Shown: positions 9,389-38,135 of the stretch, piece after piece
Layout of the letters: each line of letters begins with the position of its first letter
Numbering within the stretch: position 1 is the stretch's first letter
DNA from: an uncultured Opitutia bacterium
GTDB lineage: Bacteria; Verrucomicrobiota; Verrucomicrobiia; Opitutales; Opitutaceae
Direction: 5' to 3'
DNA: 64,000 bases
Assembly (NCBI GenBank): GCA_903834135.1
Contig: CAILHZ010000017.1
Location: forward strand, 1-64,000
Notes under the pieces: model-generated
Databases searched by the model: none
What the model was told of the DNA's origin: nothing
The model's input: only the letters and a program-made list of their open reading frames with translations
Translations under genes and position numbers: made by a program

Positions 9389-12300
9389 ATGAACACACCA
9401 CAGAATACACTCACATTAAGAGCAGATAAGTCTTTAAGAACTTATTTAGTTAAATCAGTTATGCTACTGAGTATAAGCGCACTTACAGCAATTTCAGCAA
9501 GTGCTCAATCTGCAGCTGCAGATAATGCTGCTGTAGTTTTATCTCCTTTTTCAGTTAATACATCAAAAGACGACGGTTTCGTTGCTACCAGTTCCCTTGC
9601 GGGTGGTAGATTGGCAAGTGACCTTAAAGATACGCCAGTTGCATATTCTGTTATTACAAAAGAGTTTTTAGATGCTTTTAATATTACTGATTTAACCCAA
9701 GCAGCTGACTGGGCTACTAATATGACAAGTAATCCTGGTAATAATACAGATCAGGGTTACGGATTTTCTCCTGCTATCAATATCACCATGAGAGGATCTG
9801 CTCCTAGTGAGTCAAATTACCCTGAAAGAGATTTCTTTCCCTATAACTCTAACACAGATGCTTATGCATTAGATCGTTTCGACTTTGCACGTGGTCCAAA
9901 CTCAGTTCTTTTTGGTGCTGCACAATTCGGAGGAACACCTAGTGCAATGACTAAAAAAGCACTTGTGACAAAGACTATTAATCAAGTTGTTTTCCAGTAT
10001 GGTTCATGGAATAAAATGCGCGTTACGTTTGACGTAAACCGTCCTATAAATGCTAAAGCTGCTATTCGTTTAGATGCAGTTGTCGATTATGGTAATACAT
10101 TCCGTCAAAATGAATGGCGCCATAAAAAAGGTATTTTTGCTGCAGGTACTTATAATTTGACGCCGAAATCTAGTCTAAAATTTGACGGTGAATACATGGC
10201 AACATCTGCTAAAATCTTCCCTACTTCACTTTTAGATCAAGTTTCAGCCTGGGATGGCAAAACAACCATGACAGGTCCAATTTTACCTGCAAATTCACCA
10301 ACTGCTGCAGTACTAGCACAGCAAGGCTTATCATATGGAACAAGTAACGCTAATCCATCGCTATCACCTCTATGGGTTTATGATCCAACTGGTTTTAACA
10401 CTTCAAATGTCCTCAACTTCGCAAATTTCTTTAGAACAAAAGGTGCGGCTGGAAGTAGTACAGCAGCAAATTCTAACTATATTGGTGGAAATCGTATAGC
10501 TAGTGGTAGCGTAAGCTACGCAAATCAACCGATGCTTTATGGTTATGATGTACCAAATGGACGTTATGATACTGATCTTAGTGGTTCATCTTATTTCAGT
10601 GTACCAACGCAAAAGGTCACTAATTTATGGACAAGCAATAAACCTACTCAAACACAGCTAGCTCGCGATATTGCTCTAACTTACACACATCAAGTTGGTG
10701 ATAGTTTATTTTTTGAGGTCGCAGGAGATACAAATAAAACAACCGTTGAGGGTAATAATGCTGTAAACCGTGGAATGAATACGGAATACATCGATATTAA
10801 TACTACACTTCCCAATGGTGCTGCTAATCCAGAATTCCGCCATCCTTACACAGAATTTTGGACCTATAAAAATTTACGTTGGTATGAGCTGAGTGCTTTA
10901 CGTGCACAGGCAGCATACTTGAAAGATATTAGTTTTGGTAAAATACAATTCAGTGTAATGGGAGGTGCTAATTTCCAGCGTCAAGAGAAGAGAAGTTATT
11001 TATATCTACTCCCGCTACAGGCGATTGGTCCTGATGCACGCTATTGGGATGCTGGTCAAACCAGCACTGCACTATGGAATCGTTTATATTTAGACCAAGG
11101 CGGAAGAGATTTCTACAATACAAATCTCGGTGCTATGACTCTACAAAATCAAGACGGTACATCAGTCACTGCTACGCCTCAGTGGGTTGTTGACGCAACG
11201 CGTAAGGATAATACTGCGAGTAATTTAACAAAATTTAAATTTGTACAAACGGCTACAAACTTAAACTTGTTTAATGGCAGACTAATAATGATTGGCGCGC
11301 TCCGCAGAGACTTAACACACCTTCAAACGCGAAACACTTTACTACCAGGTGACTACCCAACGGGTTGGAATGGAAGTGGTGTTATTTTTAAGCCTGATGC
11401 ACCAGCAAATTGGTCTAATTTAACTTATATACCTAAAAGTGCTGCTGGTGTTGCTACAGGACCTGCTCAGCCAGCCGATACTCGTCCGCGTCTATCAGTT
11501 GCAGCAACTAGTAGCACTGCATCTAGTAGCATTCTAGCACAGCCACAATATGCTGGGGATAAATTCCGTGATGATTACAACCCTCCTGCATTAGATGTAG
11601 CATCAAATACATATTCAACAGGTGCTACATATAACGTTTTAAAATGGCTAGGAATCTACGGCAATGCTTCCACCACCTTTAACCCAAATCTACTTGTACA
11701 GAGGCTCAATACGACACTATTGCCTCCTACAGCAGCACATGGAACTGATTTTGGTGTTCGTATTAATACACCTGATAGACGCCTATCTTTAAGTATTGGT
11801 GCTTATAATTCATACCAAAAGAATTCACCTGTATCACCTCCAAGTGGTGTAGTCGGTAATTATAACACTATTTACAGTACTGCTCCTGTTGGAAACTTAA
11901 ATCCAGGAGATGGTAATACGCGTGGAGTTGGTTTACTACCAACCGTAGTGCGTGATACTCAAACTCAACAATCTCATGGCCTAGAAATTGAAATCACAGC
12001 TAATTTAACACGCTCGTGGCGTCTATTAGCAAATGGTTCATACAGTAGATCTTGGCAGTCTGATTCGTTTCCAGACACAAGGGCGTACATCTTAGCTCAA
12101 GATACAGTGGCTCGCCAAATATTAACAGATGCCGGTGTATTAATTAGTTCCACTAACGTAGCATCGATTAATCCAGCAGTAAATACAGCTACTCAGATTA
12201 ATCAGACACAAGTTACTAATGCGGTGAATGCATGGAATGGCATACAAACCAGTGTAATTCCAAATATGGTTCTAGGTAGACAAAAACTAGCTGGTTCTAT

Positions 12301-12763
12301 GGAAAAGATAATTAACATCGGTACAGACTACACATTTCGTACCGGTACGCTAAAAGGCTTTGTTGTAGGTATTGGTGCTCATTATAGAGGTCGTAATGTA
12401 GTTGGTTATCGTGGCTCTGATACGATCATAAACCCTGCAAATACTGCAGCTACAGTTGATGATCCTACTGTAGATGCATATACCACTGTATTTGCTAAAC
12501 CTTATATTACGGGAGACGGTCGCTTAGGTTATTCGTGGAAATTACACTCAGGACATACAATGAGTGTTAATTTAAATGTACAAAATTTATTTAATAATAC
12601 TACACCAAGCTACTTCTTAGATGTTCCCGGTGCTCAGTTATCAAATACAGTCCTAAGACCCCGCAATGGTGATGTAACAAACATTGCTCTTGAAACGGTT
12701 CCTGCAGGCTATGCTCTGAGAACTCCTATTAACTATACTTTAGGATTTACAATTAATCTATAA
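9389..12763 (+). CDS. Large TonB-dependent receptor of the glycan-use locus
   Basis: A 1124-residue receptor, much longer than siderophore receptors and in the size class of verrucomicrobial and Bacteroidota glycan receptors. It has a long signal peptide (about residues 1-40, ending at SASAQ), then the extension VVLSPFSVNTSKDDGFVATS and a plug domain with the conserved LKDTPVAYSVITKEFLD segment and FDFARGPNSVLFG. The barrel ends in GFTINL. No SusD partner gene lies beside it, as is usual outside Bacteroidota. It is divergent from GH88/GH29 and followed by a convergent LacI gene. An operator-like repeat in its upstream region suggests control by sugar-responsive LacI repression. It likely imports oligosaccharides made by the neighbouring enzymes. 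Confidence 0.92.
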   Translation: MNTPQNTLTLRADKSLRTYLVKSVMLLSISALTAISASAQSAAADNAAVVLSPFSVNTSKDDGFVATSSLAGGRLASDLKDTPVAYSVITKEFLDAFNITDLTQAADWATNMTSNPGNNTDQGYGFSPAINITMRGSAPSESNYPERDFFPYNSNTDAYALDRFDFARGPNSVLFGAAQFGGTPSAMTKKALVTKTINQVVFQYGSWNKMRVTFDVNRPINAKAAIRLDAVVDYGNTFRQNEWRHKKGIFAAGTYNLTPKSSLKFDGEYMATSAKIFPTSLLDQVSAWDGKTTMTGPILPANSPTAAVLAQQGLSYGTSNANPSLSPLWVYDPTGFNTSNVLNFANFFRTKGAAGSSTAANSNYIGGNRIASGSVSYANQPMLYGYDVPNGRYDTDLSGSSYFSVPTQKVTNLWTSNKPTQTQLARDIALTYTHQVGDSLFFEVAGDTNKTTVEGNNAVNRGMNTEYIDINTTLPNGAANPEFRHPYTEFWTYKNLRWYELSALRAQAAYLKDISFGKIQFSVMGGANFQRQEKRSYLYLLPLQAIGPDARYWDAGQTSTALWNRLYLDQGGRDFYNTNLGAMTLQNQDGTSVTATPQWVVDATRKDNTASNLTKFKFVQTATNLNLFNGRLIMIGALRRDLTHLQTRNTLLPGDYPTGWNGSGVIFKPDAPANWSNLTYIPKSAAGVATGPAQPADTRPRLSVAATSSTASSSILAQPQYAGDKFRDDYNPPALDVASNTYSTGATYNVLKWLGIYGNASTTFNPNLLVQRLNTTLLPPTAAHGTDFGVRINTPDRRLSLSIGAYNSYQKNSPVSPPSGVVGNYNTIYSTAPVGNLNPGDGNTRGVGLLPTVVRDTQTQQSHGLEIEITANLTRSWRLLANGSYSRSWQSDSFPDTRAYILAQDTVARQILTDAGVLISSTNVASINPAVNTATQINQTQVTNAVNAWNGIQTSVIPNMVLGRQKLAGSMEKIINIGTDYTFRTGTLKGFVVGIGAHYRGRNVVGYRGSDTIINPANTAATVDDPTVDAYTTVFAKPYITGDGRLGYSWKLHSGHTMSVNLNVQNLFNNTTPSYFLDVPGAQLSNTVLRPRNGDVTNIALETVPAGYALRTPINYTLGFTINL

Positions 12764-30108: not shown

Positions 30109-30489
30109 CTAAAATGGCTTTGTGCGCTGACAGAATTGCAGTGGAACACCCCAAGGATCACGCATCATCACAAGAAAAGACCCGTCTGGTAATGTCTCTT
30201 CCTTGAACAGTGTAGCACCGGCCGCAATGAGACTCTCCTCTACTTGCTTTGCATTGGCAGCCACAAAGGCGATATGGAAATTAAGTGGTGGGATTGTAAA
30301 ATAGTCAGGAGCTACAACCGTTGTGTTTGAATAAAGTTCAATCACAACTCGGTCGGTTTCATCAGCTAAAAATTTAGTGTATGGAGCATGTTCAATGCTG
30401 CGTACGATTTTCAAGCCCAAGTGTTGAACATACCACTGCGTTGTCGTGCGTACATCGGCTACATTGATCGCGAAGTGTTCGAATTTCAT
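30109..30489 (-). CDS. VOC-superfamily (glyoxalase/dioxygenase-fold) protein
   Basis: A 126-residue single VOC domain made of the usual two beta-alpha-beta-beta-beta modules. MKFEHFAINVADVRTTTQWY contains the first metal-ligand His (H5), VIELYS a possible Glu ligand, FHIAFVA the second His, and a C-terminal MRDPWGVPLQF motif completes the fold. Members range from glyoxalase I to fosfomycin resistance enzymes and ring-cleavage dioxygenases; the reaction here is unknown. It starts 8 bases after the OleB-like gene and is the last gene of the fatty-acid-type operon, so it may act on, or protect against, a product of that pathway, or just be co-transcribed. Confidence 0.8.
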   Translation of the reverse strand: MKFEHFAINVADVRTTTQWYVQHLGLKIVRSIEHAPYTKFLADETDRVVIELYSNTTVVAPDYFTIPPLNFHIAFVAANAKQVEESLIAAGATLFKEETLPDGSFLVMMRDPWGVPLQFCQRTKPF

Positions 30490-30497
30490 AAATAGAA

Positions 30498-31394
30498 TTA
30501 GTTAACAATAAATTGAGCGATGGATTCAAGTACAGCACTATCGCAGTCATCTAAGACGTAGTGCCCTACATCAGGTAAATATAAAGCTTTAGCTTCAGGA
30601 AAACGTTTCCTCCACTGACCATAATAATAATCGTTAAAGCAAAAATCTTTACCTCCCCAAACGATAAACATGGGATTATTTTTAAATTGATTAAGTCCTA
30701 CTTCGATACCTTCCAGTGTCTTACGACTGCTGTCATTAGATTGCATCGGAATATCTTGCACAAAAGCATTCACCGCAACTCGGTTATTCCAGGAATCATA
30801 CGGCAGTAAGTAACCTTCTTTTTCGATGACAGTTAATTTCCTCGTGTGCATGGCCATCCACGTTGCAGGCCAGGCAAAACCATTTAGGGCACGTATAAAC
30901 CATGGACCTAAATAAGGGAGACGGCAGAATGCAATTCGTTTTGAAAGAATTTTGGAAGGAAAGGCAGCTGTATTTAAAATAACAATTTTATCAATTAAGG
31001 TGGGATTTCGCACGGCCAGTCCCATTCCAATTGCTCCACCCCAATCATGCACTACTAAATGAACACGTGTAAGACCTAAGGCATTAACAAGGGCCTCAAT
31101 GTCATCGATACGTGTTTTAAGGGTATATGAATAATCAAGCGGCTTATCTGAAAGCCCCATTCCAATGTGATCAGGAACAATGCAGCGATAAGAGTTGAAA
31201 ACTCTTGGAATTAACTTCCGATAAAAAAAGGACCAAGTTGGGTTACCATGTATAAATAAAACTGCTTGGTTTGGCTTTGGACTGGTGCCTTCATCTAGGT
31301 AACTCATCTTTACACCCCAAGGTGTTAAAAATGACTTAGGCGTATAAGGATATTCCTTTTTAAGATGCTCTGGGATTACTGTATCCATTACCAT
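30498..31394 (-). CDS. oleB: OleB-like alpha/beta hydrolase (haloalkane-dehalogenase fold; candidate beta-lactone decarboxylase)
   Basis: A 298-residue alpha/beta hydrolase. The oxyanion region is FIHGNPTWSFFYRKLIP (48-64). The nucleophile is Asp117 in VVHDWGGAIGMG, an aspartate rather than serine, as in haloalkane dehalogenases and OleB. The catalytic His278 is in DVGHYVLDD, and a charge-relay acid candidate is Asp250 in WGGKDFCF. OleB enzymes decarboxylate cis-beta-lactones to long-chain olefins. The assignment rests on the Asp nucleophile and on position: it overlaps the OleA-like gene by 7 bases, the order seen in ole loci. No OleC (beta-lactone synthetase) or OleD (reductase) gene is in the window, so the actual substrate may differ. 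It is followed by the VOC gene. Confidence 0.78.
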   Translation of the reverse strand: MVMDTVIPEHLKKEYPYTPKSFLTPWGVKMSYLDEGTSPKPNQAVLFIHGNPTWSFFYRKLIPRVFNSYRCIVPDHIGMGLSDKPLDYSYTLKTRIDDIEALVNALGLTRVHLVVHDWGGAIGMGLAVRNPTLIDKIVILNTAAFPSKILSKRIAFCRLPYLGPWFIRALNGFAWPATWMAMHTRKLTVIEKEGYLLPYDSWNNRVAVNAFVQDIPMQSNDSSRKTLEGIEVGLNQFKNNPMFIVWGGKDFCFNDYYYGQWRKRFPEAKALYLPDVGHYVLDDCDSAVLESIAQFIVN

Positions 31395-32422
31395 TCTACT
31401 CCTAACATCATACAGTTTAATCCGCTACCTATTCCAAATAAAGCAAGACGGTCGCCTGACTTTATTGCATTTGCTTTCTCTGCATACGCGAGAGTAATTG
31501 GCAATGAAGCAGATCCCATATTACCTAAGGTTTCAAACGTTGAAAAATCCTTAGCTAAATCAAGTCCTAAGGTTTCAAAAACGCGGCGTCTATGTACAGC
31601 CCCTACCTGGTGTCCAATAAAACGGTCTACATCTGTTTCAGTCCAACCCTGAGTCTGTTTAAAATCGAGCCATGTTTTGTAAGCAAGTTCTACCCCAGCA
31701 ACAAGCAGTTGCTCAGAATCAGTTTGCATTGCTAGGCCATCACTACCTTCAGAATCGCCTTGGCATAAGGCGCTATGCACGGTTGCCGCTTTAGCTACAC
31801 CACCCAGTAAGCGGTGCCCGCTGTCCTCTACTAATGAATCATGACAAAGTATCGCAGCAACCGCTCCACACCCAATAGTTAGATTAGCAAAGAAAGGTTT
31901 AATCTCATTTCTTGAAAGATTACTTTCATTTAAATGCTTAATGGTGTGCTCAACTAATGGTCTACCATTTTCAGAGGAAACAATCATCGCGCATTTAATC
32001 TGACCAGACTCAATCATTCCCGCTGCCATAGTCATCGCATTTAAAAATCCAAGACATGCATTCGAGATATCAAAAATCTGTGCTGTCTCTGGAAGGCCAA
32101 TCGCAGCATGCGCAAATGAGGCTGTTGCTGGCTCAAGCATATCCCTACACACAGCTGCATGAATAAATAACTCTATACTTTCAGCTTTAAGTTTTGATTT
32201 TGCTAGTACAGCTTTACCCGCTTTGGCACTTCCTTCAGATGGGCGCATTTTTTCAGGCCAAACACGCCGCTCCTTAATCCCAGTCATCAATTCTAAACGA
32301 CCAAATGGAAGTTTTAATTTTTCGTAGACACCGCCTAAACGTTCCTCAATTGCAGCAGATGTTAATACTTCATCTGGAAGTACAACCGCTAAGGATTCGA
32401 TACATACGTGAGAAAAATGCAT
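31388..32422 (-). CDS. oleA: OleA-like thiolase-superfamily enzyme (head-to-head acyl condensation)
   Basis: A 344-residue FabH-like thiolase-fold protein, closer to OleA than to FabH. It has the OleA-type stretches GRLELMTGIKERRVWPE (41-57), HAAVCRDMLEPATAS (88-102) and DISNACLGFLNAM (118-130). The active site is complete: Cys123, His271 (GHQVGAVH), Asn301 (LGNMGSASLP) and Glu97, matching Cys143, His285, Asn315 and Glu117 of Xanthomonas OleA. OleA joins two acyl chains by non-decarboxylative Claisen condensation into a 2-alkyl-3-keto acid. Here it sits in an operon with its own FabF-like, ACP, FabZ, FabI and CrtI-like genes, which suggests that its acyl substrate is made by that set. Confidence 0.85.
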   Translation of the reverse strand: MHFSHVCIESLAVVLPDEVLTSAAIEERLGGVYEKLKLPFGRLELMTGIKERRVWPEKMRPSEGSAKAGKAVLAKSKLKAESIELFIHAAVCRDMLEPATASFAHAAIGLPETAQIFDISNACLGFLNAMTMAAGMIESGQIKCAMIVSSENGRPLVEHTIKHLNESNLSRNEIKPFFANLTIGCGAVAAILCHDSLVEDSGHRLLGGVAKAATVHSALCQGDSEGSDGLAMQTDSEQLLVAGVELAYKTWLDFKQTQGWTETDVDRFIGHQVGAVHRRRVFETLGLDLAKDFSTFETLGNMGSASLPITLAYAEKANAIKSGDRLALFGIGSGLNCMMLGVEW

Positions 32423-32433
32423 AAGTGCGTTAC

Positions 32434-33258
32434 TTAGGTCTGTTTATTTGTCTCACTACGCATCGCCAGACGAATAACTTCTTGATCAAAGTAATTACTA
32501 CCTAAGCCAGCATCTACAATCAGAGTTGTTCCATTAATACCACTACTTCTTTTGCTGAGTAAAAATAAAGCTGTATCGGCAACTTCTTGTGTTTGAAGAT
32601 TACGTTTTCTAAACGTTATTTTTTCAGCAAAAAGATAACTTTCTAAATACCCAGGAATACCTGCTGAGGCGCTAGTCTTAAGTGGACCTGAACCAATTAC
32701 ATTAAAACGAACCTCAGTATCAGCACTAAACGATTTAGCGAGGAAGCGCGTACAGGATTCTAACGCAGCTTTGATTGGACCCATGTAGCCATAGTTATCA
32801 GGAGTTACCAGTAAGGATGAAATACCTAATGTAACAACGGATGCATCACTTGCCATTTGGCTTTTAAATGCGTTTGCAATTTCTACTAAAGAAAAAGCAG
32901 AGATAGCAGAAGCCTGTAAAAAATCTGCCTTTAGTGTCTCATGAAATGGCTTCATTCCAGTTGAGTAATTCGCAAATGCGATGGAATGCACAATACCATC
33001 AAGCTTGCCACAATTAGACGCCCTTACTTCAGAGGCTAATTTAGAAATCGAGCCTTCATGTTCTACGTCGCAGATATAAACAGTTTTACCAGCCAGCAGA
33101 GTTTCAAGAGATTTCTTACGGGATTCCGATCTTACACTATAAATGACACGAGCACCCTGCTCTTCAAGTGAGCGTGCAATATGCCACGCAACGCTGCGTT
33201 TATTCGCTACCCCAAACACTAAGAATGTCTTTTGAGCTATGCCTAAATAGTCGGCCAT
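32434..33258 (-). CDS. fabI: Enoyl-ACP reductase (FabI-type SDR)
   Basis: A 274-residue short-chain dehydrogenase of the FabI group. The N-terminal cofactor motif FLVFGVANKRSVAWHIARSL is the FabI version of the Rossmann loop. Catalytic Tyr and Lys appear as Y-x6-K in NYGYMGPIKAALES, the enoyl-reductase spacing, and GPLKTSASAGIPG corresponds to the mobile substrate loop. It reduces the trans-2 double bond in acyl-ACP elongation using NAD(P)H. The start at 33258 (MADYLGIAQKTFLVFG) fits other FabI proteins. It lies two bases from FabZ and eleven from OleA. It could be the housekeeping FabI or a cluster-specific copy; its location within the operon favours a dedicated role. Confidence 0.88.
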   Translation of the reverse strand: MADYLGIAQKTFLVFGVANKRSVAWHIARSLEEQGARVIYSVRSESRKKSLETLLAGKTVYICDVEHEGSISKLASEVRASNCGKLDGIVHSIAFANYSTGMKPFHETLKADFLQASAISAFSLVEIANAFKSQMASDASVVTLGISSLLVTPDNYGYMGPIKAALESCTRFLAKSFSADTEVRFNVIGSGPLKTSASAGIPGYLESYLFAEKITFRKRNLQTQEVADTALFLLSKRSSGINGTTLIVDAGLGSNYFDQEVIRLAMRSETNKQT

Positions 33259-33260
33259 AG

Positions 33261-33698
33261 TTAAACCTTAGCTTCTGGAGTCTTCCAGGCGACTGCGAAA
33301 TCAACAGTAAGGACACGTTTTTCACCTGATTTAACTGAACCTGACATCATTACGAAACCTCCTAATGCCTCTTTTTTCTTCACTTCGATTATAGTGGTTT
33401 CCCCAGGAAATACTGGGTTTCTGAAGCGTACATCTCCAATGCGAGCTAATAAGGGAACCCCGGGAGTCCCTGCTTTACCTAATTGCCGTGATAAAAATAG
33501 AGCGCCTGTTTGAAATACGGCTTCACACAGAAGCACCCCTGGCGTAATTGGCGCATTAGGATAGTGGCCCTTATAAAAGTCTTCCTCCGCTCTCCAAGTG
33601 CGTTTTGCCACGAGACCTTGCTCTGTTTCTGAGATGATTTCATCTACAAACAGAAATGGTGGACGATGCGGAATACGTTCTGTGACTTCTGTGGACAT
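33261..33698 (-). CDS. fabZ: 3-hydroxyacyl-ACP dehydratase (FabZ-type hot-dog protein)
   Basis: A 145-residue hot-dog-fold protein. RIPHRPPFLFVDEI is the FabZ start. The catalytic pair is His45 in FYKGHYPNAPITPG and Glu59 in GVLLCEAVFQTG, exactly as in FabZ (GHFPxxPxxPGV..EA). The later strand RIGDVRFRNPVFPGET is also typical. It removes water from 3-hydroxyacyl-ACP to give the trans-2-enoyl form. No ketoreductase (FabG) gene lies in the operon, so that step would have to be borrowed from housekeeping fatty-acid synthesis. Only 2 bases separate it from FabI and 6 from the upstream flavoprotein gene. Confidence 0.92.
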   Translation of the reverse strand: MSTEVTERIPHRPPFLFVDEIISETEQGLVAKRTWRAEEDFYKGHYPNAPITPGVLLCEAVFQTGALFLSRQLGKAGTPGVPLLARIGDVRFRNPVFPGETTIIEVKKKEALGGFVMMSGSVKSGEKRVLTVDFAVAWKTPEAKV

Positions 33699-33704
33699 AA
33701 GCGG

Positions 33705-35141
33705 TTATGAGGTTTTTATCTGACGTAAGTGTCGATCTATTTTATTAGCGACTATTACACCATAGTTCATGGTTCCAAGCCAGCCTGACATGATAATTCC
33801 AACTGATCCAGCATGGTACATACCAGGAACTTTATCAGGTAAATCCATGGATACTTTAAGTCCTTCAAACTTAGTGCCAAACGATGTACCTGAAGTATGA
33901 GTTGTGTATCGCTCTATGGTCCGCGGTGTTGCAGCTTCTTTCCAATCAATCTTTAATCTTACATCAGGAATATATACTTCAAGAGCAGTGATAGATTCGT
34001 CAATCAATCTCTCCTTTTCCTTAGCATACTGCTCGTCAGATAAGTGCTGCCAATCTGAATACTTAGCATTAATAGAAACAACTACGGAGTACCTATCAGA
34101 ACCGGGACGAGTCTCTGGATAATATAGTGAGAACGTGCGGCTGGTGGTATGAAGAGACGTTAATTCTTCAGTATTTAAATGAGGACTTTGGGAGGTAAAT
34201 ACTAAATCGCCTATATGGGGAATAGATTCCCCTTTCTTAATTCCTAGATAAACTTGGCAAGAGGTTGAATTAAGTCTCACAGCTTTACCCTCTGCTGCAT
34301 AATCTTTAGGTAAATTAGCTTCACCTAAAAGACGAAACAGTACGTTTTTTAAATTCGAATTTGAAAGTACTGCTTTTGCACGGATGGTTCTCCCACTTTT
34401 AGTGACTACACCGCACGCCACTTTAAGACCATTAACCTCTTCAACGAGAATTTTTTCAACAAGTACTTTCTTGCGAAGCTCAACTCCATTTTTCTTTAAC
34501 TCTTCGGTCATCTTTTCAACCAAAAGATCAGAGCCACCTTGAAAAGTATAGATGCCTGATCCCATAAAATTGGTGAAAACGATACCATAGGCGATTGCGG
34601 GATCATCCAGTGAAGAACCATTGGCAAAACTGATCGGCTCTAGAAGTAGCCGCTGTACATCTTCTCTACCGGGAAAGAATCTGTTAAATAATTCACGAAT
34701 TGTTTCCTGATTGTGATCAAAGAAATTCATGCCCGCTAAGTAGGCATAGAATTGATCAACAACTTGTCTATCCACCTTTAATTCTTCTACTAAAACGCGT
34801 GTGTAGTCCTCTTTTGTGAACGTCGTTTTCACATTCATTTGAGGATTAATAAAACGAATATCTCGCAAAGGAACGATACGATCGGAAATATCTTTATTCC
34901 AATACTTCCTGCATGATTTAATCATTCCAATTGGAAAACCATGTAAGGAGATATCAAAAATATGTCCACCTTTGCGAGTAAACCAGGTAGCTAGTCCACC
35001 AAACTGATAATGGTGCTCAAGCAGTAAGACTTTCCATCCAGCCTTAGCTAAATAGTTTGCTCCGGTCATTCCTGCTAAGCCACTGCCTATTACGATGACA
35101 TCATATTCATCAGCAACTCCTTTAAGCCAGTCGTAAGCCAT
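33705..35141 (-). CDS. CrtI-like FAD-dependent oxidoreductase (phytoene desaturase/RetSat type), copy 2
   Basis: A 478-residue flavoprotein of the amine-oxidase/phytoene-desaturase fold. A short leader is followed by [18 protein letters not shown] (residues 14-31), with the Rossmann GSGLAG and the acidic residue of [11 protein letters not shown]. The C-terminal region ends with the FAD-closing motif [19 protein letters not shown]. Between them lies a long variable substrate domain. Relatives introduce, remove or shift double bonds in isoprenoid or fatty chains. Placed among FabF/ACP/FabZ/FabI genes rather than carotenoid genes, it more likely acts on an ACP-bound or free acyl chain. It differs strongly from the neighbouring copy at 35159, so the two probably do different steps. 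Confidence 0.85.
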
Positions 35142-35158
35142 ATTGTGTACGTGAAGCT

Positions 35159-36616
35159 TTAAGCCTCTACGCCCCCTTTAGTCAGTATATGTGTATTGGC
35201 CATTGTGACACCACTAAGCATTGCTCCTATTATTCCTAGGAAGCCTTGATCAGTCCCACATAAATATAAATTACTAATCGCAGTTGTCCCTGATATATTC
35301 TTAGTAGGTGATCCGTAAATTGCTCCATTTAAGTGACCAGTAAAGCGTTTCACTGTTTTCGGAGTAAACATATCACTTTGAATAAGTGATCCTTTAAGCT
35401 GATACTCATTTGCGCTAGGATAATACTTTAAGGCACTTCGCTGCATCTGCATATACCACGCCTCTTTATCAGCTTTGTATTTTTCGTCGGATAAATTTGT
35501 CCACAAAGAATAATTAGCAAGACAAGTAATCTTAACTATGCCTTCTGGCATTTTACGATCCGCCCCGAAGATGAAATTATTGGGAATACAAACTACTCCG
35601 CAGCGTGTATCAATCTGCGTTTTTGGTGCTGAGTAATCGAGGCGATCAGAGTCGTTAAAAAAAAGTGCTGTATCTTGCCCGAAACCTAATTCTAACGGTT
35701 CACCCTTATACACTGAAATTGTTTCAGCAAAACTGATACGTCCTTCAGTTACATGAGGTGATGACTGTAAATTAGAATCCGCGTTACTTTGGTTATCAAT
35801 TAAAGCAGTTGTTTCTAAAGCACCGATGGATGATAGCACAACGTCTGCAGTTATTTCTTCTTCACTATCGAGAATTAAAACAGAAACTTTGCCTGCATTA
35901 ACTTTAATCCGCTTTACGCCACATTTCATGCGGCGCTCACCACCACCAGCCCTGTATTTATCCAGCAGTACTTTTATTAAAGGTCTTATTCCATCAAAAG
36001 GTCGTGCAAGTCCTTCCAGAATTGATGCCTGAAATAACATCGCAAACTGACTGTAGCTCATGTCGCCCTCTTGAGCTGAACCATAAAAAAGAGGTACACA
36101 TAAAAGCATATCCTCGAGTAAAGGATCATGGATAAATTCTTTAATTACGGCGCGAGCAGAAAGAACTGGTGCTTGCGGTGAATAATCGGTGGCTTTAATT
36201 CGTTCAACTAACCGTTTTAGTCCGTCTACTTCCAAAGGGAAATGTTTCGCAACTTCTGATTCAAAAAAAGCAAACTGGTTATTAAAATTAAGCGTTACTG
36301 GCTGTGATTTACCAAATGTAATGCGCGACTGACGCTGTTCACATAGATCAAGTTCAGAGCGGTCAATGCGCAGTTGTCTAAGTACTCGAGATAGGGCTGT
36401 TCCTCTAACCCCTTGCGGCACATAATTAGTTACAGCATGAAGCCCTACATCAAACTTTCTGCCATTAATACTATAAAAACTATTAAGACCACCTGGTGCA
36501 TTATGGCGTTCAAAGATACATACTTTTTTCCCAAAGTGCGCCAAGCGTACACCAGCTGCGAGGCCAGATAGACCCGCTCCCAGGATAACGACTTCGTAAT
36601 GCGAACGTGAGTTCAA
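35159..36616 (-). CDS. CrtI-like FAD-dependent oxidoreductase (phytoene desaturase type), copy 1
   Basis: A 485-residue flavoprotein. [20 protein letters not shown] (residues 7-26) carries the FAD motif and [15 protein letters not shown] the acidic ribose ligand with the GG pair. [10 protein letters not shown] follows, and the C-terminal FAD motif is [20 protein letters not shown]. Same superfamily as the next gene but only distantly similar. Its start overlaps the ACP stop by four bases (ATGA), indicating translational coupling. No phytoene synthase, cyclase or other carotenoid gene is in the window, so a fatty-acyl substrate carried by the adjacent ACP is the more plausible reading. The reaction (desaturation, isomerisation or saturation) is not known. 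Confidence 0.85.
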
Positions 36617-36876
36617 CGCTTCGCTTCGAGCGCGTTGAATTTTGGAGTCAAATATTCAGCGCAGCTATCTAAAGATGCTAATTTACCGTATTCAGCCTCT
36701 GGTACTTCAATACCGTGGCGTTTTCTAAGTTCCATAACGATATCCAGAAAGTCCATACTATCGAGCTGCACTTGATCACGTAAGCGAAGATCGCTCTTCA
36801 AATTCGATAGATCTTCGTCCGGCGCAATATCGGCAATAATATCTAGTACAGCTTTCTTAGTTTCGTCGTTGGTCAT
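36613..36876 (-). CDS. Dedicated acyl carrier protein
   Basis: I place the start at 36876 (MTNDETKKAV), giving an 87-residue protein of normal ACP length. The in-frame upstream ATG at 36915 would add 13 unusual residues and overlap the ketosynthase gene. The four-helix ACP pattern is clear, with the phosphopantetheine attachment Ser40 in QLDSMDFLDIVMEL (DSMD in place of the common DSLD). The protein carries growing acyl chains as thioesters. It lies 20 bases after the ketosynthase gene and overlaps the following flavoprotein gene by four bases, so these three products are probably made in step. It is likely specific to this pathway; the housekeeping ACP is not in the window. Confidence 0.88.
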   Translation of the reverse strand: MTNDETKKAVLDIIADIAPDEDLSNLKSDLRLRDQVQLDSMDFLDIVMELRKRHGIEVPEAEYGKLASLDSCAEYLTPKFNALEAKR

Positions 36877-36896
36877 AGTTAAGAGCGAACCATTAA

Positions 36897-38135
36897 CTAT
36901 GCCACATACTTGCAAACGATCAATGTAGAATTTATGCCTAACATACCGAAGGAATTATTAAGGATAGTATCCACTTTCGAGACGCGTTTAGGTGCATTAA
37001 GCACCAAACCGGGTAAATCACATAAAGGATCCAGATTTTGAACATTTATTGTAGGATGAACGATAGAATCCGTAAAAGCGGGTAAATTACCTGCTAATTC
37101 CAGTGCTCCAGCAGCCCCCATCGTATGCCCAATGAAGCTTTTCGTGTTATTAATCGATGTTGTGGGGCATCCCTCACCGAAAACAGCCCTAATAGCCTCA
37201 CACTCCTGAATATCACCCTGTGGGGTTGCAGTTGCGTGGGTATTAACAATATCTACGTCTTTAGACTCTATTTGGGCATTGGTTATAGCCCGGCGAACGC
37301 ATTCAGCCTGGCGAGTTGGGTTAGGCAGGACGTAGTCACTGGCGTCACTATTAACGCAGTAACCGGCTATTTCCCCATATATCTTAGCATTACGCTTAAT
37401 AGCATCCTCAAGACGTTCTAATGTATAAAGACATCCGCCTTCAGAAACCACGATTCCGTTACGATCCCTATCGAATGGGCGGGAGGCTTGCTTGGGGTCT
37501 ACGTGGGCTGCTAGTGCACCCTGTGACTTAAATCCAGCAAAGATACCAAAGGTATGAATACTCTCACTGACTCCTCCGCAAATGGCTACATCGACTTCTC
37601 CTAAACGGAGCATTTGAGTCGCATGAATAAGTCCTAAATTCCCTGCAGCACAGGCAGCTCCAATGGTGTATGCGGGGCCTGTAATCCCTAAATTAAGAGA
37701 TACCTCACCCGCTGGATTATTAGCTACAGTTCTAGGGTTGTGATAGTGAGACCAAAATTTAGTGTCATAGCCGAACTTAGAAATAGCATAGACTTCATTC
37801 TCAGTCTCTACGTTTCCGTGTTCTGTGCAGCCAATGTAGATACCCACTCTGTCTGTAGAAGTATTGGTAAAGTCAAGGCGGCTATCAGCCATCGCTTCTC
37901 TTGCACAGTAAATACTAATACTTCCAGCGCGAGTACCTACCCTAAGTTCTTTTTTCTTTTGATGCCTAAGGGGATCAAAATGACATACCCCAGCTGGGTG
38001 TCTTCCCATGTAGCGTACATCAATAGTCTCTACCCCTGATACTCCGCCAAGCAAACTCCTGCGGAATTCTTCTAGAGAATTACCGTTGGGGGCTGTTAGG
38101 CCTATACCAGTGATAACTATGCGAGTGTGCTTCAT
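36897..38135 (-). CDS. Beta-ketoacyl-ACP synthase II-type ketosynthase (FabF-like)
   Basis: A 412-residue thiolase-fold ketosynthase with an intact KAS I/II triad: Cys162 in TIGAACAAGN, His300 in NTHATATPQGD and His337 in SFIGHTMGAAG. The start MKHTRIVITGIGLTAPNG is the standard FabF beginning. AACAAG differs from the TACA(S/T) usual in housekeeping FabF, and the middle contains a variable YAISKFGYDTKFWSHYHNP segment, fitting a specialised paralogue. It elongates acyl-ACP by decarboxylative condensation with malonyl-ACP. As the first gene of the nine-gene operon it probably defines the chain made. It is divergent from galE with an 87-base gap that must hold the operon promoter. Confidence 0.9.
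   Translation of the reverse strand: MKHTRIVITGIGLTAPNGNSLEEFRRSLLGGVSGVETIDVRYMGRHPAGVCHFDPLRHQKKKELRVGTRAGSISIYCAREAMADSRLDFTNTSTDRVGIYIGCTEHGNVETENEVYAISKFGYDTKFWSHYHNPRTVANNPAGEVSLNLGITGPAYTIGAACAAGNLGLIHATQMLRLGEVDVAICGGVSESIHTFGIFAGFKSQGALAAHVDPKQASRPFDRDRNGIVVSEGGCLYTLERLEDAIKRNAKIYGEIAGYCVNSDASDYVLPNPTRQAECVRRAITNAQIESKDVDIVNTHATATPQGDIQECEAIRAVFGEGCPTTSINNTKSFIGHTMGAAGALELAGNLPAFTDSIVHPTINVQNLDPLCDLPGLVLNAPKRVSKVDTILNNSFGMLGINSTLIVCKYVA

Follow-up and report, generated by a model that had tools for sequence, protein, structure and literature searches.

The 64,000-nucleotide stretch of DNA analysed here (the window; positions 1 to 64,000 of contig CAILHZ010000017.1, from an uncultured Opitutia bacterium) contains nine minus-strand open reading frames, running from position 38135 to 30109, that combine a ketosynthase (KAS), an acyl carrier protein (ACP), a dehydratase and an enoyl reductase of a type II fatty acid synthase (FAS-II) with two flavoproteins resembling the carotenoid desaturase CrtI (flavoprotein A, FLA, and flavoprotein B, FLB) and with homologues of the hydrocarbon biosynthesis proteins OleA and OleB. 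Consecutive genes are spaced by -19, -4, 17, 6, 2, 11, -7 and 8 bases. A nine-gene operon had been predicted from the sequence of the window, and its coordinates, tight spacing and family assignments were all confirmed (Table 1). Since an NDK gene starts 100 bases past the VOC gene on the same strand, the end of the operon is not proven. Scans for promoters (12 versus 20.8 expected) and terminators (9 versus 7.3) were uninformative. The host genome (2.65 Mb in 26 contigs, 94% complete) belongs to the Opitutaceae.

Table 1. Genes of the operon, listed in the direction in which they are read.
Gene product	Position	Strand	Domains and motifs
KAS, FabF-like ketosynthase	36897..38135	-	PF00109/PF02801; Cys-His-His site, altered gate loop SFGMLGIN
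ACP, divergent	36613..36915	-	PF00550 27 bits; DSMD phosphopantetheine motif
FLA, CrtI/CrtISO-like, FAD fold	35159..36616	-	PF01593
FLB, CrtD/CrtI-like, FAD fold	33705..35141	-	PF01593
FabZ-type 3-hydroxyacyl-ACP dehydratase	33261..33698	-	PF07977 70.2 bits (FabA-like); PHR and GHxP...E motifs
FabI-type enoyl-ACP reductase	32434..33258	-	PF13561 197.9 bits; Y-x6-K site
OleA, head-to-head condensing thiolase	31388..32422	-	ACP_syn_III; NF006720
OleB-like alpha/beta hydrolase (beta-lactone decarboxylase), haloalkane-dehalogenase group	30498..31394	-	PF00561
VOC/glyoxalase-fold protein, peripheral	30109..30489	-	PF00903 36.2 bits

Enzymes of the operon

The first gene had been labelled KAS II; it belongs to the ketosynthase family, but is not an ordinary FabF. 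The protein scored 317.4 bits on the fabF equivalog, below the cut-off of 493.75, and its gate loop is common to all ten operon-type KAS proteins aligned (in row L049, which the script pattern had missed, the loop was read off the alignment), versus a loop of the GFGG type in the four other KAS of the genome. Of these two marks of a canonical FAS-II FabF, the equivalog-level score and the GFGG loop, it carries neither. Identity was 63-77% to nine relatives versus 24-35% to the four other KAS of its own genome. The Cys-His-His site is retained, and from the sequence it can fairly be inferred that the acyl pocket is altered. The operon ACP fell below the cut-off on every ACP equivalog model, with 65-84% identity in those relatives where it was found, and both FabZ (94.5 and 92.8 bits on FabZ models) and FabI (up to 181.8 bits on FabI models) stayed below the respective cut-offs. 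Motifs that we take to be catalytic were found in KAS, FabZ, FabI, OleA and OleB.

A fabF-acpP-fabG set sits elsewhere in the host genome (acpP and fabG judged from reading frames). The genome holds five PF00109 genes, with open frames all of 420-464 amino acids, and none of these five encodes a multidomain ketosynthase/acyltransferase/dehydratase protein of the Pfa polyunsaturated fatty acid (PUFA) synthase type. A second ACP-KAS cluster (L116:7809-12406, host contig C19), perhaps for another unusual lipid, includes a hydrolase, a HAD-like protein and a class-III-like aminotransferase, all three judged from reading frames, as was its ACP. On host contig C4 (L117:4910-10150) a fused ACP-FabZ protein of 326 amino acids lies with its own KAS, together with an SDR and a glycosyltransferase judged from reading frames.

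FLA and FLB share 22.8% identity, and each is 20-25% identical to true CrtI over partial stretches. All of the FLA (19/19) and FLB (13/13) proteins examined matched the carotenoid isomerase and desaturase models at 1e-5 or better. The matches of the operon FLA to carot_isom, CrtD and CrtI models were weak and far below the cut-offs, and FLB reached 106.2 bits on TIGR02733 (cut-off 549.7); on the CrtI model TIGR02734 (cut-off 238.1), FLA scored 57.1 and FLB 79.0 bits, versus 563.7 for the true CrtI of a relative. Structure models of moderate confidence (pLDDT 81.5 for FLA and 76.6 for FLB) both had the gamma-carotene desaturase 4rep as first PDB match, with 4dgk, 5mog and amine oxidases among the leading matches, and predict a CrtI-type FAD fold for each protein. 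The best FLB match per genome within the order was 53-76% identical. In family f5, a much diverged FLA (30-31% identity) was seen beside KAS and ACP at L053:9268-10641 and L054:9881-11245; other members of f5, such as G336, retain the usual FLA.

The operon OleA scored 452.8 bits on NF006720 (cut-off 285) and matched PDB chain 3row (E 9.6e-70). We take this model and this chain, the latter as Xanthomonas OleA, to represent OleA; the listings name 3-oxoacyl-ACP synthase III. The OleA pattern EPxx[AS]x(14,18)DxxNACL, as given in passages of a published account (PMC7158056), is present at 97-124. The neighbouring hydrolase scored up to 142.3 bits on haloalkane dehalogenase models, below their cut-offs, and its structural matches were dehalogenases; it has an HDWGG elbow and a C-terminal His, and adjoins OleA in relatives. 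No OleB-specific model matched it, and the name OleB was assigned from the hydrolase group, the motifs and the place beside OleA. The genes for OleC (635.6 bits on NF006754, above the cut-off of 478; 513.4 on the olefin beta-lactone synthetase model, below 900) and OleD (361.3 bits on NF042422, below 580) lie side by side on host contig C16 (L113:9656-11317 and 11324-12343), apart from oleAB on C17, so that homologues of OleABCD are all present in the host genome, but not as one cluster. The order yielded 29 further OleC loci. OleD comes after OleC by no more than 400 bases at 18 of them and is some 0.8-1.1 kb away at five; at the other six it is absent from the short stretch examined. With OleC and OleD both encoded in the genome, the pathway would be expected to yield an Ole hydrocarbon. 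The earlier choice between hydrocarbon, ketone and lipid is thereby narrowed to the first.

Gene order and co-occurrence in relatives

A scan of contigs gave a set of 80 named loci, each with an FLB alignment, titled as Opitutaceae, Opitutae/Opitutia, their genera or Verrucomicrobia-type, the exceptions being one Akkermansia and one 'bacterium'. Of these, 51 extend 6 kb or more downstream of FLB, and in 43 of them FabZ, FabI, OleA and OleB lie on that side. The VOC gene was seen in four of the same 51; it holds its position as ninth gene of the operon, but not as a conserved partner. On the upstream side, 54 loci had at least 7 kb, with FLA near FLB in 36 and ACP and KAS in 35. Some loci have operon parts away from FLB, and the cultured Geminisphaera colitermitum TAV2 (L276) shows FLB alone. 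KAS and ACP lay directly before FLA in 19/20 Opitutaceae loci, 15/19 loci from the rest of the order and 2/21 from beyond it; FLB was within the stretch around FLA in 14 of the 20 Opitutaceae loci and, beyond the order, once and weakly (26%). The full eight-gene order was found outside the Opitutaceae at L299 (genome G409). FLB-FabZ-FabI-OleA-OleB occurred in 11/11 loci from ten other families of the order, a set chosen for a previously noted proximity of FLB and OleA, and by hand count FLB and OleA lie within about 5 kb of each other in 34 of the 87 order genomes outside Opitutaceae that hold both, in 13 families. In the majority of the Opitutaceae loci surveyed, eight genes (KAS, ACP, FLA, FLB, FabZ, FabI, OleA and OleB) are conserved as a unit. 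The most fitting description is of two parts, KAS-ACP-FLA and FLB-FabZ-FabI-OleA-OleB, which are united in the Opitutaceae and in the family of G409 and usually lie apart elsewhere in the order. Conserved order in relatives, the lack of which would have told against the original prediction, is borne out by the four genes downstream of FLB and by the full set in G409; with the co-occurrence across genomes, it rules out a chance assembly.

Other arrangements of the two parts were also observed. In the distant family f40, a divergently oriented OleA lies beside KAS-ACP-FLA at L060 and L074, which ties it to the operon's other half; OleA is near FLA in the f40 genome G317 and not near it in G086. 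A third arrangement is seen in G131 of family f6, where FabI and OleA lie together, followed some 4 kb on by KAS-ACP-FLA, and a gene for an NtrC-type regulator stands in the interval (L051:2486-10839), and FLB is on a separate contig. Some relatives have further genes inserted between the two flavoprotein genes (for a sugar-isomerase-like protein, a proline-rich protein and others, named from reading frames); these vary by lineage and were rejected as core members. In distant families, no common partner near FLA, FLB and OleA appeared among ten neighbour proteins scanned (BrkB-like, FtsH-type protease, FHA, TPR, rhomboid, GcpE and four without a match).

Co-occurrence was examined in 387 genomes of the phylum, with cut-offs of E up to 1e-20 for FLA and up to 1e-40 for FLB and OleA. 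FLA was carried by 112 genomes, FLB by 108 and OleA by 110, and the three occurred together, often on separate contigs, in 99 of the 119 genomes holding any. Beyond the order, fourteen families had both flavoproteins; their genes were hardly ever on the same contig there, though many of these genomes are fragmented. Within the order (132 genomes), FLA was found in 104, FLB in 103, OleA in 104 (two weak matches having been excluded from the 106 reported) and OleC in 106; 89 genomes had all four and 21 had none. All four were missing from the listed genomes of families f84 and f99, of genera g200 and g203 and, weak OleA paralogues aside, of family f7, which suggests that they were lost jointly several times. 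Taken together, operon order and the co-occurrence in 99 genomes bear out the predicted tie between a dedicated acyl line and OleA, and make a strong case for a link between the flavoproteins and the Ole pathway.

Sixteen genomes of 0.8-1.1 Mb (f96, f97 and f98) retain at least two of FLA, FLB, OleA and OleC, and in 13 of them the number is three or four; such retention suggests that the product is under strong selection in these streamlined cells, but genomes of similar size in f84 and f99 have none of the four. In genus g33 of family f7, seven genomes carry two genes each for PF00494 (phytoene/squalene synthase) and lack FLA, FLB, OleC and, bar weak paralogues, OleA; in an eighth, G441, PF00494 and all four of these proteins went undetected.

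Only one sampled family, f33 (G046, G126 and G320), had OleA and neither flavoprotein in all of its OleA genomes. In G320 (L335:50-10075), OleA begins 4 bases after the gene for a protein of 2321 residues in which two ketosynthases and an acyltransferase are combined with three FabA-like stretches; that gene is itself preceded by a PfaA-like ketoreductase/dehydratase gene. In G046 (L333:12564-18933), OleA lies 4 bases after a ketosynthase-acyltransferase protein with four FabA-like stretches that runs off the stretch; no PUFA-synthase-type gene was seen in the 19 kb around OleA of G126. All three OleA proteins exceeded the NF006720 cut-off. OleA thus appears to be supplied either by the FLA/FLB-FAS-II set or by the PUFA-synthase-type gene, and f33, with OleA beside the latter in two of its three genomes, provides a natural control for the flavoprotein-OleA link.

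Proposed pathway and alternatives

The reading we consider probable is that a dedicated FAS-II line and two CrtI-fold flavoproteins supply OleA with an unsaturated, probably polyunsaturated, acyl-ACP for a long hydrocarbon and so stand in for a PUFA synthase. On this view the operon encodes that half of a long-chain hydrocarbon pathway which makes the precursor. KAS, ACP, FabZ and FabI, together with housekeeping FabG and FabD, would elongate an acyl chain on the dedicated ACP, and FLA and FLB would place or shift double bonds in the ACP-bound chain, by dehydrogenation or isomerisation, to give the putative polyunsaturated product. OleA would join two such chains head to head, and OleD, OleC and OleB would reduce, lactonise and decarboxylate its product to a polyene of the C29-C31 type. 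The operon includes no FabA-type isomerase (no search of the genome was made for FabA or desaturases), which makes a flavin-dependent isomerase or dehydrogenase the simplest source of double bonds. A bolder form of the proposal, possible though somewhat doubtful, is that FLA and FLB are oxygen-independent acyl-ACP desaturases or isomerases that turn a discrete FAS-II into a synthase of polyunsaturated chains, a third route besides aerobic desaturases and PUFA synthases, that this route feeds OleABCD across the Verrucomicrobiota, and that related enzymes carry out the corresponding step for anammox ladderanes.

Several observations weigh against this proposal. The low identity of FLA and FLB to each other and to CrtI means that their reaction cannot be read from sequence. 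FLB was found in the stretches around FLA at none of the 19 loci from the rest of the order, and 20 of the 119 genomes have only one or two of FLA, FLB and OleA; the association itself (Fisher p < 1e-74) was calculated with ancestry not taken into account. FabI may also serve primary fatty acid synthesis. As for f33, the G320 synthase scored 608 bits on the PfaA model TIGR02813, below the cut-off of 1010, no match to OleB, OleC or OleD was found in the stretches examined, and synthases of the PUFA type are able to make other lipids. Similar flavoproteins occur in Kuenenia, for which the relevant part of one report describes no polyunsaturated hydrocarbon as detected (PMC2649909).

Alternatively, the substrate of FLA and FLB could be the finished C29-C31 olefin, free in the membrane once OleABCD have acted, with the FAS-II genes only supplying a chain of fixed length. 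Enzymes of the CrtI/CrtD type act on long free hydrocarbons, CrtI on phytoene, and a central double bond is common to phytoene and the Ole product; proteins of this group were also the first solved-structure matches of both flavoproteins. We nevertheless consider this order of events unlikely, as KAS and ACP directly precede FLA at 15 of the 19 loci taken from the order outside the Opitutaceae, in stretches that contain neither FLB nor OleB, and similar flavoproteins are described in FAS-II clusters of anammox bacteria and Desulfotalea psychrophila (PMC2649909, in part). A route to ordinary monounsaturated membrane fatty acids, on whose pool OleA merely draws, would fit the operon's lack of FabA, the retention of the genes in 0.8-1.1 Mb genomes and FabI as a candidate main enoyl reductase, but seems quite improbable against the separate fabF-acpP-fabG set; furthermore, several lineages are without any of FLA, FLB, OleA and OleC, a pattern that connects the flavoproteins with Ole and not with some general requirement.

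That FLA and FLB are carotenoid desaturases that happen to adjoin lipid genes is suggested by their Pfam and NCBIfam names. No PF00494 gene was found in the host genome at its 94% completeness, and PF00494 was not associated with FLA in the order (29/104 FLA carriers versus 10/28 non-carriers, p = 0.49). G409 carries, in addition to the eight-gene operon, a true CrtI (the protein of 563.7 bits above) directly before a PF00494 gene. With scores short of CrtI level, these findings identify FLA and FLB as CrtI relatives with another substrate, so that this second outcome named as refuting the original prediction did not appear either; the carotenoid role was rejected and is extremely improbable. 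A role in ladderane-like cyclobutane lipid synthesis is very improbable too: the set of FabF, ACP, FabZ and CrtI-like genes recalls kuste3603-3607, as set out in part of PMC4790861, but the nine operon genes include no radical-SAM gene, for which reason a ladderane assignment was dropped, and OleA and OleB indicate hydrocarbons.

Comparison with known systems

The operon is best described as part of an Ole pathway variant with its own precursor line. As in the OleABCD systems of Xanthomonas and Shewanella, homologues of all four proteins occur in one genome; oleABCD genes are clustered in the systems described in the relevant parts of PMC7064751 and PMC7158056, whereas here oleAB lies inside a FAS-II/flavoprotein operon, apart from oleCD. 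OleABCD in Opitutae genomes has been reported, in a passage of PMC5673642, as a possible carbon store. For Shewanella, part of PMC6463001 proposes that OleA takes a 16:4 chain from the ACP of the PUFA synthase en route to the 31:9 hydrocarbon. An ACP-bound chain source coupled to OleA is common to both; here discrete FAS-II enzymes and two flavoproteins take the place of Pfa, and the Pfa-like arrangement is that of f33.

The candidate ladderane clusters of anammox bacteria, cited as a precedent in the original prediction, do share the FabF, ACP, FabZ and CrtI-like set, but the D. psychrophila clusters are nearer. In the former (kuste3336 and kuste3607), CrtI-like flavoproteins lie beside FAS-II genes, and both gave no lycopene in the test by Javidpour and co-workers, according to the portion of PMC4790861 that deals with it; radical-SAM and methyltransferase genes are not among the nine genes here, which have Ole genes instead. 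Rattray and co-workers (2009) described phytoene-dehydrogenase-like genes in FAS-II clusters of Kuenenia and of D. psychrophila. They found a polyketide PUFA synthase in neither organism and put forward a form of FAS-II that acts as an anaerobic desaturase; D. psychrophila makes C31:8 and C31:9 hydrocarbons (PMC2649909, in the sections concerned). The likeness to these clusters, one of description and not of sequence, is in FAS-II genes with CrtI-like proteins; they differ in their radical-SAM genes, none of which is among these nine, and OleA and OleB are not described in those sections of the report (PMC2649909).

A search of one literature collection found no paper joining these flavoproteins to OleA and no report of polyunsaturated hydrocarbons in Verrucomicrobia. 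New here are the operon link to OleA and OleB, the joint occurrence of the proteins across the phylum and their exchange for a gene of the PUFA-synthase type, and the system extends the 2009 proposal for D. psychrophila. Taken together, these data suggest that the operon is an unrecognised way to polyunsaturated hydrocarbons without a giant synthase. They bear on two open questions, namely the origin of highly unsaturated C31 hydrocarbons in bacteria that lack a PUFA synthase and the role of the phytoene-desaturase-like proteins of the anammox ladderane clusters; with flavoproteins and OleA tied together across a phylum that includes cultured relatives, both become testable in organisms more easily grown than anammox bacteria.

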